56,840 nucleotides of DNA from a virus: positions 1 through 56,840 of IMG/VR virus record IMGVR_UViG_3300025120_014829, one strand, 5' to 3'. Positions 1,628 through 56,840 of the stretch are shown in pieces. Both the position numbers and the translations under genes were made by a program. How positions within the stretch are numbered: the stretch's first letter is position 1; each line of letters begins with the position of its first letter. The notes beneath the pieces are model-generated. The model was not told where the DNA came from, searched no databases, and saw only the letters and a list, made by a program, of their open reading frames with translations.

Positions 1628-1975
1628 CTATTCCCCTATAGACTTAAATATGTCATCAGGTGAAACTGCATCATTTTTTTCTTGTTCTTTTGCAATTAAT
1701 TCTGCTAATTTTATTATTTGATCATTGCATTTTGACATTCGCTCTAAATACTTTGTCGCTAGTGTGCCGTAACTTGAGTGATTCGTTGGATTACCCGGTA
1801 TTGTTACAAGCAAATCATTAAGTAAGATTGAAGCGCTTTCTCTATCTTCTAAAGAATTTTGGTATGATTCTTTCCACAACATTTTCTTTTTATCTTCAGT
1901 ACTCTCAAGACCGTCCAATAAGTCAGAAAACTCTTTTATCTTATCGTCCTTATTGACCGACTTTTTTTTAGTCAT
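1628..1975 (-). CDS. Small helical phage protein, unassigned
   Basis: A 115-residue, highly charged, helical protein with a lysine-rich N-terminus. The central stretch (GNPTNHSSYGTLATKYLERM, then KCNDQIIKLAELIAKEQEK) is of the kind seen in small phage packaging or assembly proteins. A small-terminase-like role is only a guess from size, helical character and position. Its ATG overlaps the TGA of the sigma factor gene by four bases (ATGA), so the two are translationally coupled. The baseplate gene follows immediately. I recognise no catalytic motif. Confidence 0.6.
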   Translation of the reverse strand: MTKKKSVNKDDKIKEFSDLLDGLESTEDKKKMLWKESYQNSLEDRESASILLNDLLVTIPGNPTNHSSYGTLATKYLERMSKCNDQIIKLAELIAKEQEKNDAVSPDDIFKSIGE

Positions 1976-2724
1976 AATCCACCCATCCTAAACATTGATT
2001 TATATTCGTCGTTATTTTTAACTATCTCTCTAAAGTGTTTTCTCACATTTGACATTGCTACAGAAAGTTGTTTGGGATTAAGTCCGCTTATCTCTCGAAG
2101 GTAAACAAATATTGCGCGCTTATTTAAAAGCTCCAAGCTATCAATGTCTTTAAATAGTTTATGAACTGCTTTTACACATAGTTTTTCGTTATCATTGTTG
2201 ACTTTACATTCAATTACTTGAAGTATGTCAAACATTCTTTGTCGGTCTTCTTTTTGTACTAGGACAGATTCAGGTGATGGAACAAAATTATAACTTTCAA
2301 TTGTCAACTTGTCGCGGACGCTTAAACTCACATAATCCTCAATACTTACACTTCGTCTTGCATTCTTGTTTCTTTTATTAGATTGTATTATTAAGAAGTT
2401 TTTAGCGCAGACATTGAAGTATGAAAAAGCTTTAGATCCTTTACTCGGGTCAAACTTTTCAAGAGTTTCGTATAAGAAAGTGACACAATCAGTTTTTAAA
2501 TTCTGGAAAGTGTCTGGATCTCTGGCAAATCCATGAATAAAAATCAAGTTCTCAACTAATTTATTAAACGCAGGCCTGATTTTTTCGGAGTAAATTTTTT
2601 CTTTTTCGTTTCTACAAAGACATATCTGATATTGAACTATCGCTTCGTGCTCTTCTTTTCCAAAGTAAAGCTTATTTTTCTTACTAGCCTTTCTCTTGAC
2701 TGTCTTTTTCTTGTACCTCGCCAC
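1972..2724 (-). CDS. Late-transcription sigma factor, T4 gp55-like
   Basis: A 250-residue protein that would redirect host RNA polymerase to late promoters. A region-2-like core is visible at residues 89-110 (EKFDPSKGSKAFSYFNVCAKNF), the pattern of gp55-family sigma factors in T4-like marine phages. Near the C-terminus (about 208-231) a helix-turn-helix-like segment could be a reduced region 4. The N-terminus is very basic. The annotated start is GTG at 2724, inside the 3' end of the upstream membrane-protein gene (41-base overlap), with a weak ribosome-binding site, so the exact start is uncertain. Three TATAAATA candidates on the minus strand would be its natural targets. Confidence 0.75.
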   Translation of the reverse strand: MARYKKKTVKRKASKKNKLYFGKEEHEAIVQYQICLCRNEKEKIYSEKIRPAFNKLVENLIFIHGFARDPDTFQNLKTDCVTFLYETLEKFDPSKGSKAFSYFNVCAKNFLIIQSNKRNKNARRSVSIEDYVSLSVRDKLTIESYNFVPSPESVLVQKEDRQRMFDILQVIECKVNNDNEKLCVKAVHKLFKDIDSLELLNKRAIFVYLREISGLNPKQLSVAMSNVRKHFREIVKNNDEYKSMFRMGGL

Positions 2725-3013
2725 TTTTGATCCCTATATCTGTTGTTAGCCTATTGGCTATGTAGAGTATTGCGTTATGACACTCTTTTATATCCTGTAC
2801 AACCTGTCTTATTTCAACTGAATCGAAAAAGATAGGTTTTTTTAAAATTTCATTCATTTTCCCGTACTTAACATCAAGTATATCAAGCGATTCTTCAATC
2901 GCATCTTCAATGCCGACAATTACAAGCGAAAATTGGTAGAGTTTCCACCCAAGAACAACACATAAAATGCACAGTACGCAACACAAAGAAATAAGTATAA
3001 TATTTAATGTCAT
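2684..3013 (-). CDS. Small membrane protein
   Basis: A 109-residue protein with one N-terminal transmembrane helix (about residues 3-25, rich in L, I, V and C), followed by an acidic amphipathic region, probably cytoplasmic and partly coiled coil. Small single-pass proteins of this layout recur beside gp55 in marine T4-like phages, but their role is unknown. The ATG overlaps the stop of the upstream glycosyltransferase by one base (TAATG). Its 3' end overlaps the sigma factor gene. Confidence 0.65.
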   Translation of the reverse strand: MTLNIILISLCCVLCILCVVLGWKLYQFSLVIVGIEDAIEESLDILDVKYGKMNEILKKPIFFDSVEIRQVVQDIKECHNAILYIANRLTTDIGIKSGEVQEKDSQEKG

Positions 3014-4215
3014 TATTTAAACTTCTCTGAAAATAAGTCATTGTAAAGGTTTTTTACTGATGTACTACTGTAATCTGACCTTATTTTTTTCATCATTAGC
3101 CGTGCTGAACTTTTAGCATTAGCATAATCATCATATACTTTACGTACTTCTTTTTTGAAACTATGCTCGCTTGGGTTGGCCCACCTAAAACCTGTTTTAA
3201 ATATTCTGTCGTCAACTCTATTTTCATTAATTTCTATTAAATCATAATCTACAGCTCCAAAATTTTCTCGATCAAGAAACTCTAAATGGCCAGACCAATT
3301 GGTCGCTACAATAGGTAAACCTGCAACAGCAGCTTCAATAAGTGGTAGACCGTAACCTTCACCTCGAGTTGCAGTTGCGTACATTTTAACCTTAGTGTGA
3401 TTATATAATGCTGCTACTTCTTCTGAAGTCATGTTTCCGTGCAAAAAGTTTAATAGCTTTTCTTCTCTTCTGTAGCCTAGTTCAGATTTTAACTTTCTTA
3501 AGAAAACTTTGCACATTTTCTTATCTGCTGTTGTTCCTTTACCGAAGCTAGTTTTTAATATAACACCTACATCTTTTTCTTCTTTAAACTCTTCCAGCGT
3601 CCATTTTATTGTATTCACTAAATTTTTTCTATCTGAAAGAGGATCTTGGCTCGTTAAAGTACCTACAATCAGTACATTAAATGGTTCTTTAATTGCATCA
3701 AAACGATCATCGTTAAGTATCTTATCACACTTGCTTCGACTCATGATATCAGCATTATACCACTCAGGCACTACAGAGACAGGTTTCATTACGATACCTG
3801 ACCTTTTTAAGACATTTTTTGTAAAAGTTGATGGCACAACAATGTGGTCCATCTGGTTACAACATTTTACCCATTCAGGATTGCACCTATCAGTTTCTAC
3901 AAGTGCAGTAATTCCAACATTGTATTTTGCCGCTGTTGGATTCCATTCATCAGGTAATTGCACCTGGAACGACATGTCAAATATCTCGTTATTTGCTGGC
4001 TTTGAACATTGCATTATCTTGCCGATTAATCCGTTTTCTTCGTTCTCATCAAGTATCCATGAAGTCATTCCCCAATTTAAACACTCGACTGTTAACTCAA
4101 CGTCAGGTCTGCTATGCAACCAACTAAAAACTTGGCGTGAATGAACACCGTAACCGCTATTAGTTAGTAATGGTGCCCTAAGTAGGACTTTTTTCTTCGG
4201 TAGTTCACTAAACAT
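3013..4215 (-). CDS. Glycosyltransferase, GT4 family (GT-B fold)
   Basis: A 400-residue retaining glycosyltransferase. The N-terminal Rossmann domain contains the acceptor-side motif NSGYGVHSRQVF (19-30). The C-terminal nucleotide-sugar domain has the family signature TRGEGYGLPLIEAAVAGLP (283-301) with the paired glutamates, followed by ATNWSGH. It probably adds a sugar from a nucleotide donor to a glycan. The stop/start junction with the next GT4 gene overlaps by one base (4215), so the two are coupled. Donor and acceptor cannot be told from sequence. Confidence 0.85.
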   Translation of the reverse strand: MFSELPKKKVLLRAPLLTNSGYGVHSRQVFSWLHSRPDVELTVECLNWGMTSWILDENEENGLIGKIMQCSKPANNEIFDMSFQVQLPDEWNPTAAKYNVGITALVETDRCNPEWVKCCNQMDHIVVPSTFTKNVLKRSGIVMKPVSVVPEWYNADIMSRSKCDKILNDDRFDAIKEPFNVLIVGTLTSQDPLSDRKNLVNTIKWTLEEFKEEKDVGVILKTSFGKGTTADKKMCKVFLRKLKSELGYRREEKLLNFLHGNMTSEEVAALYNHTKVKMYATATRGEGYGLPLIEAAVAGLPIVATNWSGHLEFLDRENFGAVDYDLIEINENRVDDRIFKTGFRWANPSEHSFKKEVRKVYDDYANAKSSARLMMKKIRSDYSSTSVKNLYNDLFSEKFK

Positions 4216-5474
4216 TAAATCTCCTCAATAGTCCAGCTGTGTTTTGTATCTTTAAAATCATTGATTGCCTTTAGCATTGTGTCATGCCACATGTCGATCG
4301 TCTTCTGGTATGCAAATTCGTTCTTTGCGTAATCTTGAACTTTCTTTTGCAGGCCGGTCCATTGCTTAGAATCGCTTTTTTTAGAGTACAACTCCATAAT
4401 TGCTTTCGCAATATTGTTATTTGAAACATAATCTTCATAAATATAAGGAACACTCTGACTCCCTACTAAAGTTTTCAAATCTACATCAATTGCCACTCCG
4501 TTATGAGAATTGTCTCGATGATCAACGACTTGTCTGGTCAGACCGCCAGTTTTCGGAGCGATAATAGGTGTTCCAGTCATCATAGATTCAAGTGTTGATA
4601 GTCCGAAACCTTCAGCATAAGATGTATTGATGCAAAAGTCAGAAATATTATATAAAACATTCATCTTTTCAAATTCAATTCTGTCCCTTGAAAAGACTAC
4701 ACTTTCATGAACACCAAGCATCTCTGACACTTTAAACAAATTAGGGCCTTCATTGTCTAGAGGCTCCGTGTGCATTATTAACGTTGCGTTTCTATGACCT
4801 TTGCTTTCTTCTAAATTATCTAAGAAAATCTTCCAAGACTCGAGCAAATCAGCCGGTCTTTTTCTCTTTGCATTTCTATTCACCCATATTCCAACAAAAT
4901 TATCTTTTTTGTCTTCACCCAATATTGTTATTTTATGACGTAAAATATCTGACTTTTTCATTTTATAAAACATGTTATCAGGCAATGAGTGAGGAATAAA
5001 GTTTGTCTTTTCCGGGAAGTGCTCTTTTAACATTGTATATGTCATATGGCTGTGACAATTAATTAAATCAGTTGCTTCATAGTAACTACTGTTAAACTTA
5101 GGATATGGATAATTATCCCATACGTGCCACCAAACTATTGGGCATATCTTCCTGATTTCATCTTCCATATCAAAAAGCCACACAAAAAATCGTGGATCTG
5201 TGAAGATAAAAAGTGCATCTGGTTTTTCAGTTGCTAGCGTTACTCTAATTAAGTCCGGATTACCAAAACCATCTATGGGTTTTATGATAAAATCATCGTT
5301 AACAACGACTGTTCTATAGTCTTCATGTTTAAGCGCTGCACCAAATTGTCTAAAAGACCATTTTCCCTTCTTGAGCAAACCTTCCAAGAGGTGCCTTGTT
5401 TGTGTTCCCACACCACTTGTTGAGAGTGCGTGGTCTGACAAAACTAAAATTTTAAATTTGCCGTCTTCTGTCAT
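4215..5474 (-). CDS. Glycosyltransferase, GT4 family (GT-B fold)
   Basis: A 419-residue GT4 enzyme. The N-terminal domain begins with a strand and a glycine loop (STSGVGTQTRHLLEGL, 18-33). The donor domain has NTSYAEGFGLSTLESMMTGT (283-302) with the E-x7-E pair and then APKTGG. A WWHVWDNYPYP motif (115-125) marks the acceptor side. It is the first gene after an 88-base gap (5475-5562) that contains a plausible promoter, so it may head the 3'-terminal transcription unit of the glycan cluster together with the 400-residue GT4, the small membrane protein and gp55. Confidence 0.85.
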   Translation of the reverse strand: MTEDGKFKILVLSDHALSTSGVGTQTRHLLEGLLKKGKWSFRQFGAALKHEDYRTVVVNDDFIIKPIDGFGNPDLIRVTLATEKPDALFIFTDPRFFVWLFDMEDEIRKICPIVWWHVWDNYPYPKFNSSYYEATDLINCHSHMTYTMLKEHFPEKTNFIPHSLPDNMFYKMKKSDILRHKITILGEDKKDNFVGIWVNRNAKRKRPADLLESWKIFLDNLEESKGHRNATLIMHTEPLDNEGPNLFKVSEMLGVHESVVFSRDRIEFEKMNVLYNISDFCINTSYAEGFGLSTLESMMTGTPIIAPKTGGLTRQVVDHRDNSHNGVAIDVDLKTLVGSQSVPYIYEDYVSNNNIAKAIMELYSKKSDSKQWTGLQKKVQDYAKNEFAYQKTIDMWHDTMLKAINDFKDTKHSWTIEEI

Positions 5475-42811: not shown

Positions 42812-43159
42812 ATGAAGATAACAAGACGTTTTATAAAGAACCTAATCAAGGAAGTAAAGGGAGGCAATTCTTGTCCTGCTGCGACCAAAGATAAGAAAGT
42901 TAACGCTGAAAACAAAATCAAAGCTGCAAAAAACCCTAAAATCAAATACGGTCACCCAAGTAAAATTAAAGATTTGCAAAAGCTTTTAAAAGAAAATAAA
43001 CTTTGTGGCAATTGCGCTGCTTTTGACATTACCCCTAAAATGATTAAGTGTGGCGGAGCTAATAAGAAAGGCACAGCAGGCTACTGTAAAATGCACGACT
43101 TTAGTTGTGCAGCAGAAAAGACATGTTTAACTTGGGCACCAGGAGGACCAAAGAGATGA
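42812..43159 (+). CDS. Cysteine-rich protein with shared N-terminal module
   Basis: A 115-residue protein. The N-terminus MKITRRFIKNLIKEV is the shared module, with I-K-E at residues 12-14. The second half, CGNCAAFDITPKMIKCGG, GYCKMHDFSC and TCLTWAP, carries spaced cysteines and a histidine, consistent with a metal or iron-sulfur site (reminiscent of HiPIP-type spacing). It starts six bases after the zinc-ribbon gene and its TGA overlaps the next ATG (ATGA). The function is unknown. Confidence 0.65.
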   Translation: MKITRRFIKNLIKEVKGGNSCPAATKDKKVNAENKIKAAKNPKIKYGHPSKIKDLQKLLKENKLCGNCAAFDITPKMIKCGGANKKGTAGYCKMHDFSCAAEKTCLTWAPGGPKR

Positions 43160-43551
43160 AAATAACAAGAAGACAAATTAGAATATTATTAGAACAAGAA
43201 GTTGAAAAACTTTCTGATGAAGAAAAAGTAGCTGCAGAAAAAAAGATAGAAGACGAAGGTGGTGCTTTAGGTAAGGATGACTTTGTAAAAACAGTCAATG
43301 ACATCAACCCAGATGTAAATTACAGTGAAGAAGAAGCGTTACGTCGAGCTCAAGCATCAATTGAAGACTTTAAACTTCATAAGGCTACAGATGTATACAC
43401 CGACAGACCAAAAGAAATTAATGAAACTTTTTTAAGGCGATTAATAAGAGAAAAACTTGAAAAGATTGCTTTCTATGACAAGTACAGTTACGGATTAGAT
43501 GATATCCCTAACCAGACAAAAGCACATGACGATATTATAGGTCACACATGA
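43156..43551 (+). CDS. Protein with shared N-terminal module, stopped by an in-frame TGA
   Basis: A 131-residue protein as read to the first stop. AGGAGG at 43141-43146 precedes the ATG at 43156. It starts MKITRRQIRILLEQEV, the shared module, in which L-L-E or E-Q-E occupies the cleavage-like position. A second copy, ETFLRRLIREKLEKIAF, lies about 90 residues in. The stop at 43549-43551 is TGA followed by CTG. The same frame stays open for a further 83 codons to TAA at 43801-43803, so the true product may be about 215 residues. Confidence 0.65.
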   Translation: MKITRRQIRILLEQEVEKLSDEEKVAAEKKIEDEGGALGKDDFVKTVNDINPDVNYSEEEALRRAQASIEDFKLHKATDVYTDRPKEINETFLRRLIREKLEKIAFYDKYSYGLDDIPNQTKAHDDIIGHT

Positions 43552-49835: not shown

Positions 49836-50285
49836 ATGTTAATTGCATTATTATCATTATTCACAGTACACGCTGAAAATCTTGAAACTATTTACTATTG
49901 GGAGAATACTCCCGCTATTGAAATATGCCCGGAATCAAACGTTACGATCAACGAAATACAAGTAGCAATAAATTATTGGCAGACAAAAAACAACTATAGA
50001 TTTTCATATATTAACAAAGTTTCTGAGTGCCTGTATGAGAAATTTAATACAATACAAATAACGAACGGAGACAGAATTATTGATAATTCGCTAGCAACGA
50101 CCAATGTTTCCTGGTACTACTATCCTAAAATAGATCCTCATAAAAACGCAAGATATGTCTCTAACGCAATCATTAACATACCAACAAATCTTAAAAAATC
50201 ACGACAAGATATCATTACGCACGAACTAGGTCACGCATTTGGATTGGATCACTCAGATCACCCTATCATGAAAGAATATTTTTAA
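49836..50285 (+). CDS. Secreted matrixin-like zinc metalloprotease
   Basis: A 149-residue protein with an N-terminal signal-like helix (LIALLSLFTVHA). The metzincin motif HELGHAFGLDH (129-139) is complete, and a Met-turn-like methionine follows (Met145). This is a short stand-alone peptidase domain close to the matrixin family. Probably exported to the periplasm. GGAG lies seven bases before the ATG. Its 3' end overlaps the convergent gene by 20 bases. Confidence 0.8.
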   Translation: MLIALLSLFTVHAENLETIYYWENTPAIEICPESNVTINEIQVAINYWQTKNNYRFSYINKVSECLYEKFNTIQITNGDRIIDNSLATTNVSWYYYPKIDPHKNARYVSNAIINIPTNLKKSRQDIITHELGHAFGLDHSDHPIMKEYF

Positions 50286-51510
50286 TAATACTTTCTCTGA
50301 CTAACATCCTTAATCGTTGTTCAGAGCTTTCTTTAATATTCCTTGGTTTTAAGCCAAAGTCTGGAAGATTTATGCCCTTATTTTTTAAATGTGCGTCAAT
50401 GTTCGCCGATCCCACAATTGATTTCCCATCAGCACCAATCAGAACTTCCTCTCTACCTCTTGACTTAGTCTTAAACACACTCGGATCAAAACCTATTTTC
50501 TTGAGCGACTCATCAAAAGCAGAAATAACTGTATTTTTTTCTTCATCAGGAAACTTTAATTTAGACAAAGTGTTTTTGATCTTACCTACTGCTTGCTCAT
50601 ACGCTCCCGATGTTGAAAACTTAGGACTTCCGTCTAACTTATAACCATACACTCTAACACCATCAATATGCAAACCATCAACCTTATTCAACATAGCTCT
50701 TTTCTTATCACCAATAGCAGAGGCACCAAAACCTTTATTGTGCACCACCTCAAACGTTTGATCATCAATTCTAAGAACTATCGAAGCGGCTAGTACACTT
50801 TTACCCTCACCTTTCTTAGGTACAAAACCATAATCATAGCTAGCCATGTTTTTAATTTTAGCAACGTTAAAGTTCATAAGTAGTTTTTGACCGTTGATTT
50901 TAAAGTCAACTGTTTCCATATCATTCATAACTATCTCGCCAGTAACTAAATTAGTCCCTTTTTCTATGATACTATCTATTTCCTTGTGCTTCCGAGTCAT
51001 GACTTTACCGACTATTTTTTGAAATTCTTGATTAAATGAATTAATTTCACTTTCTTGTCGGTGAACACTAGTCATTATATATTTGTCAGAAAGTAGTGAT
51101 TCTATTTCTTCACGTGATAAACCTTTGAAGTCTCTGTGCCCTTGCAAAAGATATGACATTAAAACACTTTCAGGTTTATCTAACCCTCTACCGTCATCCT
51201 TTAAACCAGTTTTTTCAAGTGTACCGTCTTTTCTCATCTTTTCATAGTTTTTTCTTGCCAAGTCTTTGGTGTAATCATCAAACCGATCTACGTATACTTC
51301 GAGATTGGGATCATCCTCAATGTTTTGTGGGTATTTACTTTTATCTTTCTTGAAAAAACCAATAAGTTTTTTACCTATAGGTAGCTCTTTAATTTTGTCT
51401 GCAACTTTTTCTACTTTGTCTGTAATCTTATTTTCAATAATATAATCTTTACTGTCACTAAATATTGAAGCTTCAATGAGCTTACTAAGATTTCTTCTAC
51501 TAATTTTCAT
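50266..51510 (-). CDS. Hypothetical protein with N-terminal (and C-terminal) module copies
   Basis: A 414-residue protein. It starts MKISRRNLSKLIEAS (L-I-E-A) and ends SEQRLRMLVRESIIKNILS, a second module-like helix with V-R-E-S. Between them are a charged N-terminal third (KVADKIKELPIGKKLIGFF) and a beta-rich core (VDFKINGQKLLMNFNVAKI and VLRIDDQTFEVVHNKGF). I recognise no catalytic motif. Its ATG is preceded by AGGAGA, with GTATAAT about 30 bases upstream. Confidence 0.6.
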   Translation of the reverse strand: MKISRRNLSKLIEASIFSDSKDYIIENKITDKVEKVADKIKELPIGKKLIGFFKKDKSKYPQNIEDDPNLEVYVDRFDDYTKDLARKNYEKMRKDGTLEKTGLKDDGRGLDKPESVLMSYLLQGHRDFKGLSREEIESLLSDKYIMTSVHRQESEINSFNQEFQKIVGKVMTRKHKEIDSIIEKGTNLVTGEIVMNDMETVDFKINGQKLLMNFNVAKIKNMASYDYGFVPKKGEGKSVLAASIVLRIDDQTFEVVHNKGFGASAIGDKKRAMLNKVDGLHIDGVRVYGYKLDGSPKFSTSGAYEQAVGKIKNTLSKLKFPDEEKNTVISAFDESLKKIGFDPSVFKTKSRGREEVLIGADGKSIVGSANIDAHLKNKGINLPDFGLKPRNIKESSEQRLRMLVRESIIKNILS

Positions 51511-51552
51511 TTATTGTCTCCTAATATTTTCATTATACGAATAAGTATTTAT

Positions 51553-51996
51553 TTATTTACGCAATATTATATCAAAAACAGGCAACCGAACACCCCAGTT
51601 CTGATGTTGATCTTTTTCCATGTGATGTGCATAATGCCATGGCAACCATTTCTTTCCCCACTCCACATCAACGTGCGACCTACGATGAATGTAATAATAG
51701 GCAAACGCAGAGTACAACAGGGTCATCCAAAAATATGGTATGATAAACAACAGGGGTAAGTGAGAAAGAAGCAACAGGATCAAACCTATAACTTCGAATG
51801 TACTGCTATTTTTTGATATCTTTAAGTAGTTTTCATCATACATTTTATTATTTCTTGCTATGCGATGATGTGTTCCAAAGTGACGCTTAAAAGGACCTTT
51901 GAATCGCTTGTAATTGTGCAAAACATGTTTGTGTATAATATACTCCGCAGCGTGTCCGTAAATCCATCCTAATAAAATCTGCAAAGCAATATACAT
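51553..51996 (-). CDS. Fatty acid hydroxylase/sterol desaturase-family protein
   Basis: A 147-residue integral membrane di-iron oxygenase. Histidine boxes: HKHVLH (22-27), HFGTHH (39-44), HRRSH (104-108), HYAHH (121-125) and His131, plus a hydrophobic central hairpin (about 68-100). The layout matches the short bacterial fatty-acid hydroxylases and carotenoid hydroxylase relatives. The likely function is hydroxylation of a lipid or carotenoid in the host membrane. It starts one base after the oligo-T of the upstream hairpin terminator, so its transcription is probably governed by readthrough. Confidence 0.8.
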   Translation of the reverse strand: MYIALQILLGWIYGHAAEYIIHKHVLHNYKRFKGPFKRHFGTHHRIARNNKMYDENYLKISKNSSTFEVIGLILLLLSHLPLLFIIPYFWMTLLYSAFAYYYIHRRSHVDVEWGKKWLPWHYAHHMEKDQHQNWGVRLPVFDIILRK

Positions 51997-52029
51997 AAAA
52001 AAACCCCCTATAGTTTTATCTATAGGAGG
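51997..52029 (-). terminator. Rho-independent terminator
   Basis: On the minus strand CCTCCTATAG, a six-base loop and CTATAGGGGG (arms 52020-52029 and 52004-52013, one G-T wobble), followed by seven T (51997-52003). It ends the 76-residue gene and lies directly against the ATG of the hydroxylase gene. Structure is clear. Confidence 0.85.
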
Positions 52030-52063
52030 ATTTATATTACTTGACTTATAATTTATAAATTAT

Positions 52064-52294
52064 TTAGCCAATTGTGGAAGTTGAGGTCTTTCCATCAATG
52101 TATGAGTTGAGAAAACTCTGGAAAGCACGAGCTTCTTTAACAGTCATCGTAATCTGTGAACGAGATGTGTAATAAGAATCATCTGGTGCGTTTGTGGTAA
52201 TAGATACTGTATTAGAACCTACTTTGTGAGACTTTGTGTCACGACTGATATTGAAATTGAAACGTTTTGTGCTTTTTGACTTATTGAATTGCAT
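52064..52294 (-). CDS. Small hypothetical protein
   Basis: A 76-residue protein, Ser/Thr-rich and probably beta-sheet with one helix: FNFNISRDTKSHKVG, then MTVKEARAFQSFLNSYIDG. No recognised family. It is a single-gene unit: a promoter-like TTGTAA, 17 bases and TATTAT precede it, and a strong terminator follows. That suggests high, independent expression. Confidence 0.6.
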   Translation of the reverse strand: MQFNKSKSTKRFNFNISRDTKSHKVGSNTVSITTNAPDDSYYTSRSQITMTVKEARAFQSFLNSYIDGKTSTSTIG

Positions 52295-52402
52295 GTATTT
52301 TCTCCTGTTACTTGCTAATTATTGAATTCCTTTAAATCCAATATTAATATAATACCGAAGAATACTGTGCTTTACAAAAGTTTTCAAATAAACTTAACTT
52401 AT
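52295..52402 (-). promoter_or_regulatory. Promoter region of the 76-residue gene
   Basis: A 108-base gap. On the minus strand TTGTAA, 17 bases and TATTAT match sigma-70 elements in 4/6 and 5/6 positions. ACAGGAGAA provides the ribosome-binding site. Nothing else was seen here. Confidence 0.45.
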
Positions 52403-53491
52403 TTACCTGTCTAAAAACAGAGAATACGACCCATCATAGTACTTTATAATAATACTAGCATTCTCAGCAGCATTAATTAAATGATGAGAGTGGTAAATAT
52501 AAGACTCATATGTTTGTTCATCAATTTTTTGCTTATATTCCTCAACAAAATCATTATAACTTTGCATCATTTCTACAAAAAATCGAATATTAACATTAAC
52601 AATCTTATCAATCCCTTCAGTATTATTGTAGATTTCTTTGGCAACCTGGTCAGGCGTTAATGATTTAATCATTTTAAAAAACACATTAAAACGATCGATT
52701 CCATCTTTTGTTGCAAATCCTCGACGAAAGTACTCAAATATTTCAGCAATTGTGGTACCACTCGAAGCGCGCTGTTCATAACTTAATTCTGATGGTGATA
52801 AACTATCTCCGGAAAAACCAAGCAGTGGTAGTAATATGTCTTTTAAAGTGTCATCAAATTCACTTTTTAGTTCATTCTCAGTGCGATTAATAAATGAAAA
52901 GACTTTGCTAAATCCAGCAGGTGTAAAGTGTTTTATATTAATACCCTTTGAATATCCTGAGTGCAAAAAGATTGTTTTAAAAAATAAATGAATAGGACTA
53001 ATTCCGTGAGCATTAGAAGTAACAAGAAAATCATCATACTTTTCACCCATCTCAATTAAATCATCCCGCGAGTCTGTTAAATAAAAAGAATTGTCATGCG
53101 CAATCTTGAAAAACACAGCAATAAAATTTACTTCTGATGTCAAATTACCTAACTTTGTCAAGTTTTCTCTACCAGAAGGTGTCATTAACTTACCAATCGA
53201 CGAAGCCCCTCTTGTATCACCACCGTGCATAGAGTACTTACTAGTAAAAAACTCTAGCCTGGATGGCAACTCTAGAGTAGAATCTGTTTTTTTAAAACCA
53301 GATCTTTGCTTAGATCTATATATCCCGTCAGGTAAAGCACGATACAGCGACAGCACACTCTGTATCATTAATCCCACAGCATGACTAGTCATCGTAGATT
53401 CTTTAAATTCGTCAGGAGCAGACTGCAAAGCTAGCGTGTGCATTAACGATTCTTGTATTAACTTTCTTAATATTTTCTTTGTTACTTTCAT
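52403..53491 (-). CDS. Hypothetical protein with shared N-terminal module
   Basis: A 362-residue, mostly helical protein. The start MKVTKKILRKLIQES is the shared module (I-Q-E-S at 12-15). The rest has no motif I recognise. A KYSMHGGDTRGAS and a YESYIYHSHHLINAAENA segment are notable. It precedes the terminator-bounded 76-residue gene. Its size suggests an ejected or head-internal protein if the module is a capsid signal. Confidence 0.6.
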   Translation of the reverse strand: MKVTKKILRKLIQESLMHTLALQSAPDEFKESTMTSHAVGLMIQSVLSLYRALPDGIYRSKQRSGFKKTDSTLELPSRLEFFTSKYSMHGGDTRGASSIGKLMTPSGRENLTKLGNLTSEVNFIAVFFKIAHDNSFYLTDSRDDLIEMGEKYDDFLVTSNAHGISPIHLFFKTIFLHSGYSKGINIKHFTPAGFSKVFSFINRTENELKSEFDDTLKDILLPLLGFSGDSLSPSELSYEQRASSGTTIAEIFEYFRRGFATKDGIDRFNVFFKMIKSLTPDQVAKEIYNNTEGIDKIVNVNIRFFVEMMQSYNDFVEEYKQKIDEQTYESYIYHSHHLINAAENASIIIKYYDGSYSLFLDR

Positions 53492-53524
53492 TAAGTTCTC
53501 TTTCTTTTGTATATTATGCAGGTA

Positions 53525-54073
53525 CTAATACCGGCCTATAGCACGTATCTCTTGAATAATAATTTTTCTTATTTGATTACGTGTTAATTTCTCTTCAATC
53601 CCAGCACGTGTCCTATTGCTAGGGTTGGCATTAAAATACCTATCCATATGTATATCGTCTAAATCAATGATTCGACCTAGGTCATCTCCAGCATCTCTCA
53701 CAGCTTTATCCATCGCTAGTTCTTGTGCCTGAGACTCAATACCACCAAAACCATATATTCTACCTAGCGCATCTTTGCTTTCTTCCGGATCTTGTGGGAG
53801 ATTGCTTAAAATATCTTCTGCTCGACCTCCTAATTTCTCCATATCACCAACTTCTTGATACGCGATGTAATTATCCACGTAATTAGGCGCACCGTACGAG
53901 TCTAGAAAGCTTCTAGCTTGATTTATATCCTCTGGTGTTCCTCGATCAATCATTGCATTAATTTTTTCTGCATGAGATGCAGGAATATGTGCAGGTAACG
54001 AGGGTTTGATTCTATGCTCGAAAAACATAGCTTCACTGATTAATTTTCTTATTTGATTCCGGGTAGTTTTCAT
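53525..54073 (-). CDS. Module protein, paralogue of the 55067 gene; module at both ends
   Basis: A 182-residue protein. N-terminal MKTTRNQIRKLISEAM carries I-S-E-A. The C-terminus EKLTRNQIRKIIIQEIRAIG is a second copy of the module (TRNQIRK is identical). The central part, HRIKPS, then EKINAMIDRG, QARSFLDSYGAPNYVDNY, and EVGDMEKLGGRAEDILSN, is clearly related to the protein at 55067-55828. Function unknown. Confidence 0.65.
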   Translation of the reverse strand: MKTTRNQIRKLISEAMFFEHRIKPSLPAHIPASHAEKINAMIDRGTPEDINQARSFLDSYGAPNYVDNYIAYQEVGDMEKLGGRAEDILSNLPQDPEESKDALGRIYGFGGIESQAQELAMDKAVRDAGDDLGRIIDLDDIHMDRYFNANPSNRTRAGIEEKLTRNQIRKIIIQEIRAIGRY

Positions 54074-54106
54074 TATAATTCCTTTTGTTCTTAAATAATT
54101 ATGTAA

Positions 54107-54481
54107 CTACAATCCAAATAACTCATTCCGCTCATCGCTATACAGAACACGCATATGCACACTAGCATTAAGTGCCGCAGCCTTGGCCAGTCGATGATTC
54201 CCGTCGAGCACTACAACAGGGCGCTTGGTCACACGATCCACTTCAACAATGATCGGCGTCAATATATTTGCGCGCTGCACTCGATGTGTCTCGATACCTG
54301 TTATCTCGCGTGCTAGCATCTTCTTAAGTTTACACGCATTCATTGTGATCACCGGCCGTGCACGACTGTCTAAGAAACCGGTCACATCCCCTAAACTAAC
54401 AACTCGATCTCCCATATCCCAAGTCGTATTAAGGCCTGACTCACGTATTAATCGTCTTAGTTGCCGGCGAGTAATTCTCAT
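54107..54481 (-). CDS. ParB/sulfiredoxin-like domain protein with shared module
   Basis: A 124-residue protein. MRITRRQLRRLIRESG is the shared module in its cleanest form (I-R-E-S). Residues about 70-115 form a ParB/Srx-like fold: ILTPIIVEVDRV, then VVVLDGNHRLAKAAALNA with DGNHR at 93-97, the conserved nucleotide-binding/phosphate loop. Such domains occur in DNA-binding, CTPase and nuclease proteins. It might enter the head with DNA if the module is a targeting signal. Confidence 0.65.
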   Translation of the reverse strand: MRITRRQLRRLIRESGLNTTWDMGDRVVSLGDVTGFLDSRARPVITMNACKLKKMLAREITGIETHRVQRANILTPIIVEVDRVTKRPVVVLDGNHRLAKAAALNASVHMRVLYSDERNELFGL

Positions 54482-54494
54482 TCTTTCCTCTTTT

Positions 54495-55067
54495 TTAATT
54501 AATTAACTCGTCAAGTAAGTCATTATTAGGATTGTAATACGCACCGTCTTCCCAGTCAAACTCGTACGCTCCGGTATAGTAATACTCATTTACATCGTCC
54601 ATGTTATTCAGAAGCCATCTTTCAGCTTCAGAGACAACCTTGTCGAATAGAGCTAGCAACTCTGAACTACTTAGGCTGGGGCTACCCGCCTTTTTGGCTC
54701 TCACAGCATTTTTGACTTTTTGAAAAAGTCTTTTACTCACCGGGGCTTCAACACGTCGAAATTTGGAACCATCTTTGTTGACGTATGCCACACTAAGCGT
54801 GGGTCGGCTAGACAAGCGTTCATACCCACCTCTCATCTTTACAACAGCTGGGGCATCCATTTGATCTGAGATGTCAATTAAATTTGCCGCGGACTTGAAA
54901 TACTCATCGCTGTCTCCTGACATTGTTGACACTTTCTCCCTGTATTCCGGATTATCTGATACGATCATTGACTGCGGAATGTGCCTATCTTCACCGCTTG
55001 GAAATGTGTTCGGGTCATACATGGCTTCGCTAATTAATCGTCTTAATTGTTTTCTTGTGATAATCAT
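54495..55067 (-). CDS. Hypothetical protein with shared N-terminal module
   Basis: A 190-residue acidic protein. It begins MIITRKQLRRLISEAMYDP (I-S-E-A). The acidic, tyrosine-rich C-terminus (YYYTGAYEFDWEDGAYYN) is conspicuous. The start overlaps the stop of the upstream paralogue by one base (TAATG). No recognised family. Confidence 0.6.
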   Translation of the reverse strand: MIITRKQLRRLISEAMYDPNTFPSGEDRHIPQSMIVSDNPEYREKVSTMSGDSDEYFKSAANLIDISDQMDAPAVVKMRGGYERLSSRPTLSVAYVNKDGSKFRRVEAPVSKRLFQKVKNAVRAKKAGSPSLSSSELLALFDKVVSEAERWLLNNMDDVNEYYYTGAYEFDWEDGAYYNPNNDLLDELIN

Positions 55068-55828
55068 TATGACCTCTGTATATATAGTCGTCTTGGATCT
55101 CTATGTATCTGCAACATCTTGATCGCTGTTTCTATCTTAGTGTAGATTCCATATCGGAACTGAGAACGATCACGATTAAAATCACGTAAGTCATCAGCCA
55201 TGACAATGTGAGTATAAGACTTATTAATAAATGAATACAACGCATCAATCAAGTCTTCAACTTCAACACCAATAGCAACTTCACCACCAGGTAACTCAGG
55301 TGCACGCAAGTAATACTGATCTGTCATTTCGATCTCGAGAATGCGACGCACTGCCATTTCTTGTAATAGTTTATGCTCCAAAAACATGTCCGGGTCGCGA
55401 TGCTGAGGTATAGCATTTAGATGCTCTTTGTTTCTATTTTTTGCATATCTAGTATAGTAAGAGTCATAAAACGAGTCTAGTCGATCCTCTTGTTTCTCGA
55501 AGTCTTTCATGAAATCGCGTGCTATGGCCCTTGCTCGATCGTCCACTGATTGCACATCGCCATAACGATAACCGGGATCACTAAGAATTTCAGCTGCTTC
55601 ATTTCCTAGCTTCTCTAAGTCACCAACTTTTTCGTACGTCATATAGCTATCAACATAGTCTGGGTCTCCGTCAAATGCATCTATTAGTGACTGCGCCTGC
55701 GCTAGGCGACCACCATCAATGAGACTATGTATCTTATTTAAATGCTCCGGCGGGATATTAGTAACAGAAGGCTTGATTCTCACTTCTTGTAAAATAATTT
55801 GTCGTAATTGTCTTCGTGTCACTTTCAT
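55067..55828 (-). CDS. Module protein, paralogue of the 53525 gene
   Basis: About 253 residues from the ATG at 55828 (GGAG six bases upstream). MKVTRRQLRQIILQEV is the shared module (L-Q-E-V). It is followed by VRIKPS, then LNKIHSLIDGG, AQSLIDAFDGDPDYVDSY and KVGDLEKLGNEAAEILSD, shared with the 182-residue protein. The C-terminal 120 residues differ and contain LLQEMAVRRILEIEM, another module-like helix. Function unknown. An upstream in-frame start at 55873 lacks a ribosome-binding site. Confidence 0.65.
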   Translation of the reverse strand: MKVTRRQLRQIILQEVRIKPSVTNIPPEHLNKIHSLIDGGRLAQAQSLIDAFDGDPDYVDSYMTYEKVGDLEKLGNEAAEILSDPGYRYGDVQSVDDRARAIARDFMKDFEKQEDRLDSFYDSYYTRYAKNRNKEHLNAIPQHRDPDMFLEHKLLQEMAVRRILEIEMTDQYYLRAPELPGGEVAIGVEVEDLIDALYSFINKSYTHIVMADDLRDFNRDRSQFRYGIYTKIETAIKMLQIHRDPRRLYIQRS

Positions 55829-55986
55829 TATGACTCCATGATATGATGTATATAAATAACTATCAAAGATCAACTTATTTGTCTCCGGTAAAATTTCAAT
55901 AAAAACCCCCGGTCCTCACCGGCGCGAGCTAGCCCTACCCTATGAACGCCGAGTAAGACCCCGCAGGGTCCTCCTCAGCTCACACT
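55829..55986 (-). terminator. Intergenic region with GC-rich hairpins and terminator
   Basis: A 158-base gap downstream of the zinc-protein gene. On the minus strand a GACCC-TGCG-GGGTC hairpin lies near 55960-55975. A CCGGT-GAGG-ACCGG stem (55909-55922) followed by GGG and TTTTT (55901-55905) is a good rho-independent terminator. The left half is AT-rich phage-like sequence, so the composition changes within this gap. Confidence 0.7.
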
Positions 55987-56337
55987 CTACTTTTTCTTTC
56001 CGATACCGGTCAAATGCCACACATCATAGTACTCTGGACACTCATATACCTCTACAGCTTCACACCTAGCTTTATCATTTATCTTTGCACACACAGCTTC
56101 TATCTTATCCCGATCTAAGTAAGCACGCTTCAAACGACCTAGATGATCTCGACAACTACACACCTTATAATGCTCATCATTCGACTTCGTCCGCAAGTGC
56201 CAGTAATCACAACGTGCACATCGATAAGGCACTAACTTACGATGCTTCCGCTTACACTTCTTAGCATATCGTCGAGCCTCTGTCTTACTATGAAACACCA
56301 TCATCGGTCGACCGGTGCCTAAATGAACACAATTCAT
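55987..56337 (-). CDS. Duplicated zinc-binding (WHL-motif) protein
   Basis: About 116 residues, very basic with many cysteines. Two halves appear to be duplicated: SKTEARRYAKKCKRK leads to YRCARCDYWHLR, and DRDKIEAVCAKINDK leads to YECPEYYDVWHLT. In the second copy the second metal cysteine is lost. Such short Y-x-C-x2-C-x3-WHL modules occur in many phage and bacterial small proteins. The ATG at 56337 overlaps the viperin-like stop (56334) as ATGA, with GGAGGT seven bases upstream, so translation is coupled to that gene. Confidence 0.7.
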   Translation of the reverse strand: MNCVHLGTGRPMMVFHSKTEARRYAKKCKRKHRKLVPYRCARCDYWHLRTKSNDEHYKVCSCRDHLGRLKRAYLDRDKIEAVCAKINDKARCEAVEVYECPEYYDVWHLTGIGKKK

Positions 56338-56840
56338 TTTGACACCTCCCAAGACCAAACTCCACCGCGATCCTCAAATACATCATCGTTGAACATCGAC
56401 TCGATCTCCGACCAAGCCCGATCCATGCCTACCTCAGGAATCGGGGCACTGCGCTTGAATTCCCCTCCCACATTATTATAAAACCTCAACTTACCGTCGA
56501 GCATGCAATAACTACCAGTCATTAACTCATTCGACTCAACAACAGGCTCTAAGTGCTCATGCCGAGCAACCCAAGCCCGAAATTCCTCACTCGTGATCTC
56601 TAACTCATCCCATACATCATCATTCTCGCCTTTGATCGGTAAGGCCTGGAAAACTTTCCAGCGATGTGGCCTTAACTGCGCGACTAAGTCAGACATGTCG
56701 TCAGCCTTATTATAGTTACACACAACTGTGTTCAGCTTCAACTGATAACCGAGATCTTGTGCAGCTTGCCAGCTTACCAGCGACCGCTCGAGATGCTTAC
56801 TGTATCCCGCCTTGAGCTCGCCTGCGCGTCCTCGGCCGAT
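56334..56840 (-). CDS. Viperin-family radical SAM protein, C-terminal part (5' end outside window)
   Basis: At least 168 codons, open to the right edge. The visible part matches vertebrate and prokaryotic viperins: IGRG, YSKHLERSLVSWQAA, LKLNTVVCNYNKADDM, LRPHRWKVFQALPIKGEND (cf. human NPVRWKVFQCLLIEGEN), ITSEEFRAWVARHE, VVESNELMTGSYCMLDGKLRFYN, VGMDRAWSEIESM, and RGGVWSW. Viperins turn a nucleoside triphosphate into a 3'-deoxy-3',4'-didehydro chain terminator. The CxxxCxxC iron-sulfur motif lies upstream, outside the window, so activity cannot be judged. GC content is higher than elsewhere. Confidence 0.85.
   Translation of the reverse strand: MGRGRAGELKAGYSKHLERSLVSWQAAQDLGYQLKLNTVVCNYNKADDMSDLVAQLRPHRWKVFQALPIKGENDDVWDELEITSEEFRAWVARHEHLEPVVESNELMTGSYCMLDGKLRFYNNVGGEFKRSAPIPEVGMDRAWSEIESMFNDDVFEDRGGVWSWEVSK

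Follow-up and report, generated by a model that had tools for sequence, protein, structure and literature searches.

A predicted terminator hairpin of a marine phage holds the candidate ribosome-binding site of a hydroxylase-like gene

Riboswitch-type expression platforms act through intrinsic terminators or through sequestration of the Shine-Dalgarno sequence. As a rule, a terminator is regarded as one element and a masked ribosome-binding site as another. In phage T4, according to a review (PMC3014915), genes e, soc, 49 and I-TevI have hairpins that mask their ribosome-binding sites, and for e and I-TevI late promoters are placed in the 5' portion of these structures.

The sequence analyzed here (hereafter the window; 56,840 bases, positions 1-56,840 of IMG/VR record IMGVR_UViG_3300025120_014829) is from a marine bacterial virus. 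It belongs to a T4-like phage, with PhoH and a gp55-like late sigma factor (1972..2724, minus strand; phrog_234, E=0.0022); relatives of the latter were found in six of 15 viral records, one of them weakly (E=0.006), and gp23-type capsid genes are present in two records related to the window. On the minus strand, a gene of 76 residues (52294..52064) is followed by a 34-nt A+T-rich gap, a hairpin with a 10-bp stem (52029..52004), seven T residues and the ATG (51996) of a gene of 147 residues. An earlier, sequence-only reading had placed this ATG directly after the oligo-T of a strong hairpin, and that description was borne out: the hairpin (CCTCCTATAG-ATAAAA-CTATAGGGGG, then TTTTTTT) has a computed fold energy of -14.5 kcal/mol, which was equalled by one of 200 dinucleotide shuffles. 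Absent from that reading was the Shine-Dalgarno sequence within the hairpin. The main new result, drawn from sequence comparison, is that a terminator has been remodelled into what is predicted to be a ribosome-binding site that the same hairpin hides.

The 147-residue protein is encoded by an intact open reading frame (51553..51996, minus strand). It had been described as a fatty-acid hydroxylase/sterol desaturase with all histidine boxes, and ten histidines (H22, H27, H39, H43, H44, H104, H108, H121, H124 and H125) proved invariant in 45 homologs; they are presumably the metal ligands of a di-iron site. The window protein itself matched neither PF04116 (FA_hydroxylase) nor any other Pfam family at E<=1, gave nothing near a cut-off in NCBIfam and nothing meaningful in a sequence search of the PDB, and in PHROGs matched only phrog_23204, at E=0.096. 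PF04116 was matched by six of the eight phage homologs and by 30 of the 45 homologs (best 1e-11). An AlphaFold2 model (pLDDT 90.8) had as its sole PDB fold match the hydroxylase domain of Scs7p (4zr1), with a Foldseek E of 2.0 and a TMq of 0.59, at which other folds are possible; VIA-align gave a Z of 9.5 and an rmsd of 3.1 over 135 aligned residues, which is modest for a helical protein. These observations support placing the membrane protein near the fatty acid hydroxylase superfamily, as a hydroxylase-like protein of predicted activity, and its family suggests that it may modify host membrane lipids; the change in host lipids or carotenoids put forward in the sequence-only reading is likewise a prediction. 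A comparison of the window with a second virus (L001) gave a dN/dS of 0.095 (dS 1.41), indicative of purifying selection and hence of a working gene; this excludes a degraded gene, one of the two outcomes that the sequence-only reading had named as refuting it.

Relatives of the hydroxylase are carried by 69 uncultivated viral contigs, and the earlier claim that it is rare in phages was therefore dropped, though no genuine isolate record bears the gene. The isolate-phage collection returned two matches with the same organism name, and the one that was opened has hisF, thrB and aquaporin genes and looks like a bacterial chromosome. Bacterial and archaeal relatives were found at 390 loci; in an unrooted tree that included the best 80 of these 390 cellular matches (79 usable), eight phage sequences stood apart from the 79 cellular ones with support of 99/92. 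The 69 viral contigs and this separation argue that the hydroxylase belongs to a phage-resident family and is not a rare import. The presence of such a lipid hydroxylase family on 69 or more contigs bears on the ways in which phages might change the membranes of their hosts. Literature searches returned no paper that, judged by title and abstract, describes an enzyme of the fatty-acid hydroxylase or sterol desaturase kind in phages. The neighbours of viral and bacterial hydroxylases gave no clear hint of a substrate; at 16 of the 79 bacterial loci a divergent adjoining gene resembles, by eye, a TetR regulator.

Start regions were compared for 65 of the 69 viral loci, with L160 (the same virus as L155) and L205, L219 and L223 (in which the match lies at the locus end or close to it) omitted; once L167, which had no usable start, and five duplicates were removed and the window was added, 60 distinct viral hydroxylases remained. 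The gene lies behind a terminator in two of these, the window and L155 (= L001), and weakly in L157 (= L006). As 58 of the 60 start regions are without the arrangement, the idea that hydroxylases generally sit behind terminators was rejected. One relative in another context (L005, ~1215-1264) has CTCCTATAATATAGTATAAATAGGAGG upstream, where a Shine-Dalgarno-like AGGAGG could pair with CTCCT, with TATAAT between them.

Relatives of the 76-residue protein were found at thirteen viral loci, two of which (L122 and L123) represent one virus; neither the protein nor the locus (distant blastn) had a match in the isolate-phage collection. A promoter scan and the relatives indicate a sigma-70-like promoter for this gene, TTGTAA-17-TATTAT (52349..52377, minus strand), and a script returned the TTGTAA-17 element in seven of 12 relative rows. 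Just past the -10 element is a possible 5'-terminal stem of the mRNA (ATTGGATT..AATTCAAT, 52321..52342, minus strand). In most relatives a similar stem (ATTGG..CCAAT) can be made out by eye, at the same place in several of L121, L124-L130 and L132, with variants (ATTGAC..GTCAAT and GATTGATC..GATCAAT) in which both sides have changed between viruses; it is likely to be a 5'-terminal mRNA-stabilising hairpin. From these comparisons the 76-residue gene reads as a conserved single-gene transcription unit.

The stable stem and U tract of an intrinsic terminator are present at 52029..51997, and a custom scan of the window ranks the site among its top three for a hairpin followed by a T tract; the other two of similar strength (15546 and 39810) both fall within long open reading frames. 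Beyond the stop codon of the 76-residue gene, all 12 relative rows examined have a terminator-like hairpin, in every case at or below -10.6 kcal/mol, and its sequence differs in nearly every virus. The 12 rows comprise ten distinct hydroxylase-less viruses, one near-duplicate (L133 of L129) and the L001 lineage; L122 was omitted as the same virus as L123. Because all of the examined relatives of this gene carry a terminator there, the hairpin can be assigned to the 76-residue gene as its inherited intrinsic terminator, at which transcription would be expected to end in vivo. The U tract is perfect in the window and broken by a G in L001 (TTGTTTT, likewise 7 nt). Overall, an ATG opening at least 60 codons lies 3-13 nt beyond a terminator-like site at seven of 94 such sites, when 3.3 would be expected, about twice chance.

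The sole Shine-Dalgarno candidate of the hydroxylase, AGGGGG (52009..52004), is the hairpin's own 3' arm (CUAUAGGGGG, 52004..52013, minus strand); the 5' arm (CCUCCUAUAG, 52020..52029, minus strand) includes the complementary CCUCC, and the terminator U tract (51997..52003, minus strand) is also the 7-nt spacer between the Shine-Dalgarno sequence and the AUG. The sequence-only reading had proposed a search for the same arrangement in relatives, and it recurs in L001, whose protein is 80% identical in amino acids to that of the window and which is identical to L002 across the 1.2 kb compared, so that the two count as one lineage. There the candidate is GGGGGG, again 7 nt from the AUG. By eye, nine stem pairs are kept between the window and L001, one of these nine by a compensated change (U-A to C-G), and the loop-closing pair is lost in L001; with the arrangement in only two independent viruses, no covariation statistics are possible.

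Among the viruses with a 76-residue gene, the hydroxylase follows the hairpin directly just in the window and in the L001/L002 lineage, which were compared with ten hydroxylase-less relatives (L133 being dropped). The computed duplex between the 3' arm and the anti-Shine-Dalgarno sequence has an energy of -8.7 and -8.9 kcal/mol in the two hydroxylase-bearing viruses, versus -2.7 to +2.2 kcal/mol in all ten of the others, which have no such sequence there. Likewise, TATAAA abuts the hairpin in 2/2 viruses with the hydroxylase and in 0/10 without it. The cost of opening the start region was computed for 419 genes, drawn from the window and from portions of three related records, with energies that take no account of ribosomes or proteins: the window has 14.7 kcal/mol (rank 7/419) and L001 has 19.0 kcal/mol (rank 2/419), the median being 4.9. 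For an RNA that starts inside the 5' arm, the computed cost would be ~4.9-6.3 kcal/mol in the window and ~6.1-7.0 kcal/mol in L001.

Genes that start directly after a hairpin and U tract were also seen elsewhere, at L010/L007 (247 aa; minus strand, near 4238 of the reverse complement) and at L144 (201 aa; 7275). At both, the Shine-Dalgarno sequence is again within the 3' arm; no clear promoter was seen inside either, which speaks against the inside start discussed below, and the hairpin may be opened in another way.

The sequence-only reading held that the terminator leaves no room for a promoter, which is too strong, as there is an A+T-rich gap of 34 nt before the hairpin, and transcription may also start within the hairpin itself. 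The gap contains a conserved non-coding block, AAGTCAAGTAATATAAA (52031..52047, minus strand), identical at 17 of 17 positions in L001, and the 3' end of this block is the -10-like TATAAA (52036..52031) that abuts the hairpin. The conservation of the block is only suggestive, because the window and L001 share other runs of at least 17 identical bases, within the 76-residue gene and near it. As a wider viral signal the block was rejected: it was found in 25 stretches, of which those beyond the two L001-lineage records are in unrelated sequence, many of them in repeated, apparently coding contexts. No good -35 element was found for the TATAAA, and no promoter is listed at this place by the promoter scan.

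Two sites here approach the late consensus of T4, TATAAATA: TATAAATC in the window (7/8) and TATAAACC in L001 (6/8). Upstream of genes in these phages, this consensus occurs seven times in sense and six times in antisense orientation, so that it shows no strand bias, and the 140 nt before gp23 contain none in 2/2 relatives. On these two results, the case for a T4-type late promoter as a general element here is not established. A strand-biased motif, ATAATATA (21 versus 4), was also set aside, as most of its occurrences are -10 elements of sigma-70-like type from a single stretch of the relative L145. Initiation within the 5' arm, driven by TATAAA(T), would fit, the element being in the same relative place in both viruses. 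The sequence-only reading had named a transcription start inside the hairpin as an outcome that would refute it; such a start is unproven, and is judged at least as likely as read-through.

The explanation favoured here, to which about even confidence is attached, is that one 26-nt hairpin does two jobs, as an inherited terminator and as a remodelled, masked ribosome-binding site, and that RNAs without the CCUCC arm serve the hydroxylase. The 3' arm AGGGGG and the U tract would be the ribosome-binding site and spacer of the hydroxylase placed directly behind them. Most transcripts from the promoter of the 76-residue gene would stop in the U tract, and those that read through would keep the whole hairpin, so that the Shine-Dalgarno sequence is paired with the CCUCC arm and translation is weak. 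The hydroxylase would then be made chiefly from RNAs that lack this arm, the simplest source being RNAs that start inside it (~52025-52022), from a promoter that uses the TATAAA at 52036..52031. The virus appears to keep the hydroxylase off in read-through RNA until the hairpin is opened. The fuller proposal, in which these 26 nt form the 3' end of one gene and both the translation lock and the transcript start region of the next, the terminator having evolved into a masked leader with a promoter inside it, is put forward tentatively, as a possibility that we lean against. If true, it would serve as a time switch governing the membrane-lipid hydroxylase that the virus encodes, an enzyme whose family is widespread among viruses and unnamed in the family libraries searched.

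The sequence-only reading had instead proposed expression by antitermination or read-through from the 76-residue gene. The link to that gene was upheld, its examined homologs all having the terminator; read-through is, however, insufficient by itself and a poor route to the enzyme, because the start region is so costly to open (14.7 and 19.0 kcal/mol, versus a median of 4.9), and with the ribosome-binding site paired in the same hairpin, either something must also open the hairpin or transcription must start within it. A version in which the hydroxylase lacks its own promoter, a phage-modified RNA polymerase passes the terminator, and the hairpin is tolerated or is opened by a ribosome, helicase or RNase would draw on the good, conserved promoter upstream of the 76-residue gene and on a gap that has no evident strong promoter. 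The stop codon of the 76-residue gene is 34 nt before the hairpin, though, and a ribosome terminating there probably would not open it; together with the paired ribosome-binding site of the read-through RNA, this leaves such a route unlikely, if still worth serious attention. It is less probable again that the hairpin is only a terminator behind which the hydroxylase happened to land, with the G run as a fortuitous Shine-Dalgarno sequence and low, unregulated expression. Such simple packing of genes would agree with a frequency of terminator-plus-ATG sites just about twice chance in these phages, and with the 58 of 60 viral start regions that lack the arrangement, but not readily with a G-rich arm and TATAAA that are present in both gene-bearing viruses and in none of the ten others, nor with a stem and spacing kept at a dS of ~1.4.

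The interrupted U tract of L001 and the similar starts before the 247-aa (L010/L007) and 201-aa (L144) genes would be expected if the hairpin had ceased to terminate and were purely a translation-masking leader, perhaps opened by a protein or an RNA, in which the U tract is a mere spacer. This is highly improbable given that a terminator-like hairpin is kept at this place in every examined relative of the 76-residue gene and that the window's own U tract is perfect. The plentiful bacterial homologs of the hydroxylase (390 loci) might suggest a gene of cellular origin, captured or degraded, that has no function in the virus; this is refuted for practical purposes by the dN/dS, the invariant histidines, the separation of phage from cellular sequences in the unrooted tree and the 69 viral contigs.

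Several other genes of this virus and its relatives were noted. At the end of the window (56335-56840, minus strand, running off the end) is a viperin-like gene whose C-terminal part matches 7n7h (1.9e-23) and PADLOC pVip (6.5e-35); L001 has a complete, full-length viperin open reading frame (2871-3752, 293 aa) with the CxxxCxxC motif, and another occurs in L229. Viperin was found in two of 12 records searched (the L001/L002 pair), a virus-borne antiviral-defence enzyme that is conserved in the lineage. Many genes start with a motif like MK(I/V)TRRQLRRLIxE(A/S) (window 42812-43551 and 50266-55873; L010, L144, L177 and others), which we take to resemble the T4 capsid-targeting sequence with its (L/I)-x-E cleavage site; by this analogy, their products are possibly a set packed into the head. 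Genes for PrkA kinase, SpoVR and DUF444, a bacterial stress triad, stand in a row on the phage (window 37405-41883, minus strand), and a long surface-sugar cluster (window 2684-29679) encodes NeuB, a cytidylyltransferase, a DAHP-synthetase-family protein, a carbamoyltransferase and, by eye, several glycosyltransferases and epimerases. Beside the hydroxylase region in both the window (49836-50285, plus strand) and L001 (5450-5905, minus strand) is an M10-type metallopeptidase-like gene (assigned from the window match), on the strand opposite its neighbours.

With respect to described systems, the protein resembles PF04116 and Scs7p (4zr1) in its histidine pattern; unlike Scs7p, it has no fused cytochrome b5 and is only 147 residues long. 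As in riboswitch platforms, one hairpin could affect both the transcription and the translation of the next gene, but here it ends an upstream protein gene and not a leader, and an Rfam search gave no aptamer, only three sub-threshold matches, none of them near the gathering score. The proposed mechanism is most like that of phage T4 e, soc and I-TevI, with masking and an inside start that are inferred here. As in e, soc, 49 and I-TevI, the Shine-Dalgarno sequence would be held in a stem in long transcripts, and as in e and I-TevI, a transcript beginning inside the 5' strand of the hairpin would free it; the phage also shares with T4 a gp55-like sigma factor, and its relatives carry gp23. The late-promoter consensus TATAAATA, by contrast with T4, is matched at just seven of eight positions (six in L001) and is unconfirmed as the late promoter of this group. 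Unlike those of the T4 genes, the window hairpin appears also to be the inherited intrinsic terminator of the gene upstream, and the relatives with and without the hydroxylase offer a plausible before-and-after of a terminator turned into a masked ribosome-binding site.
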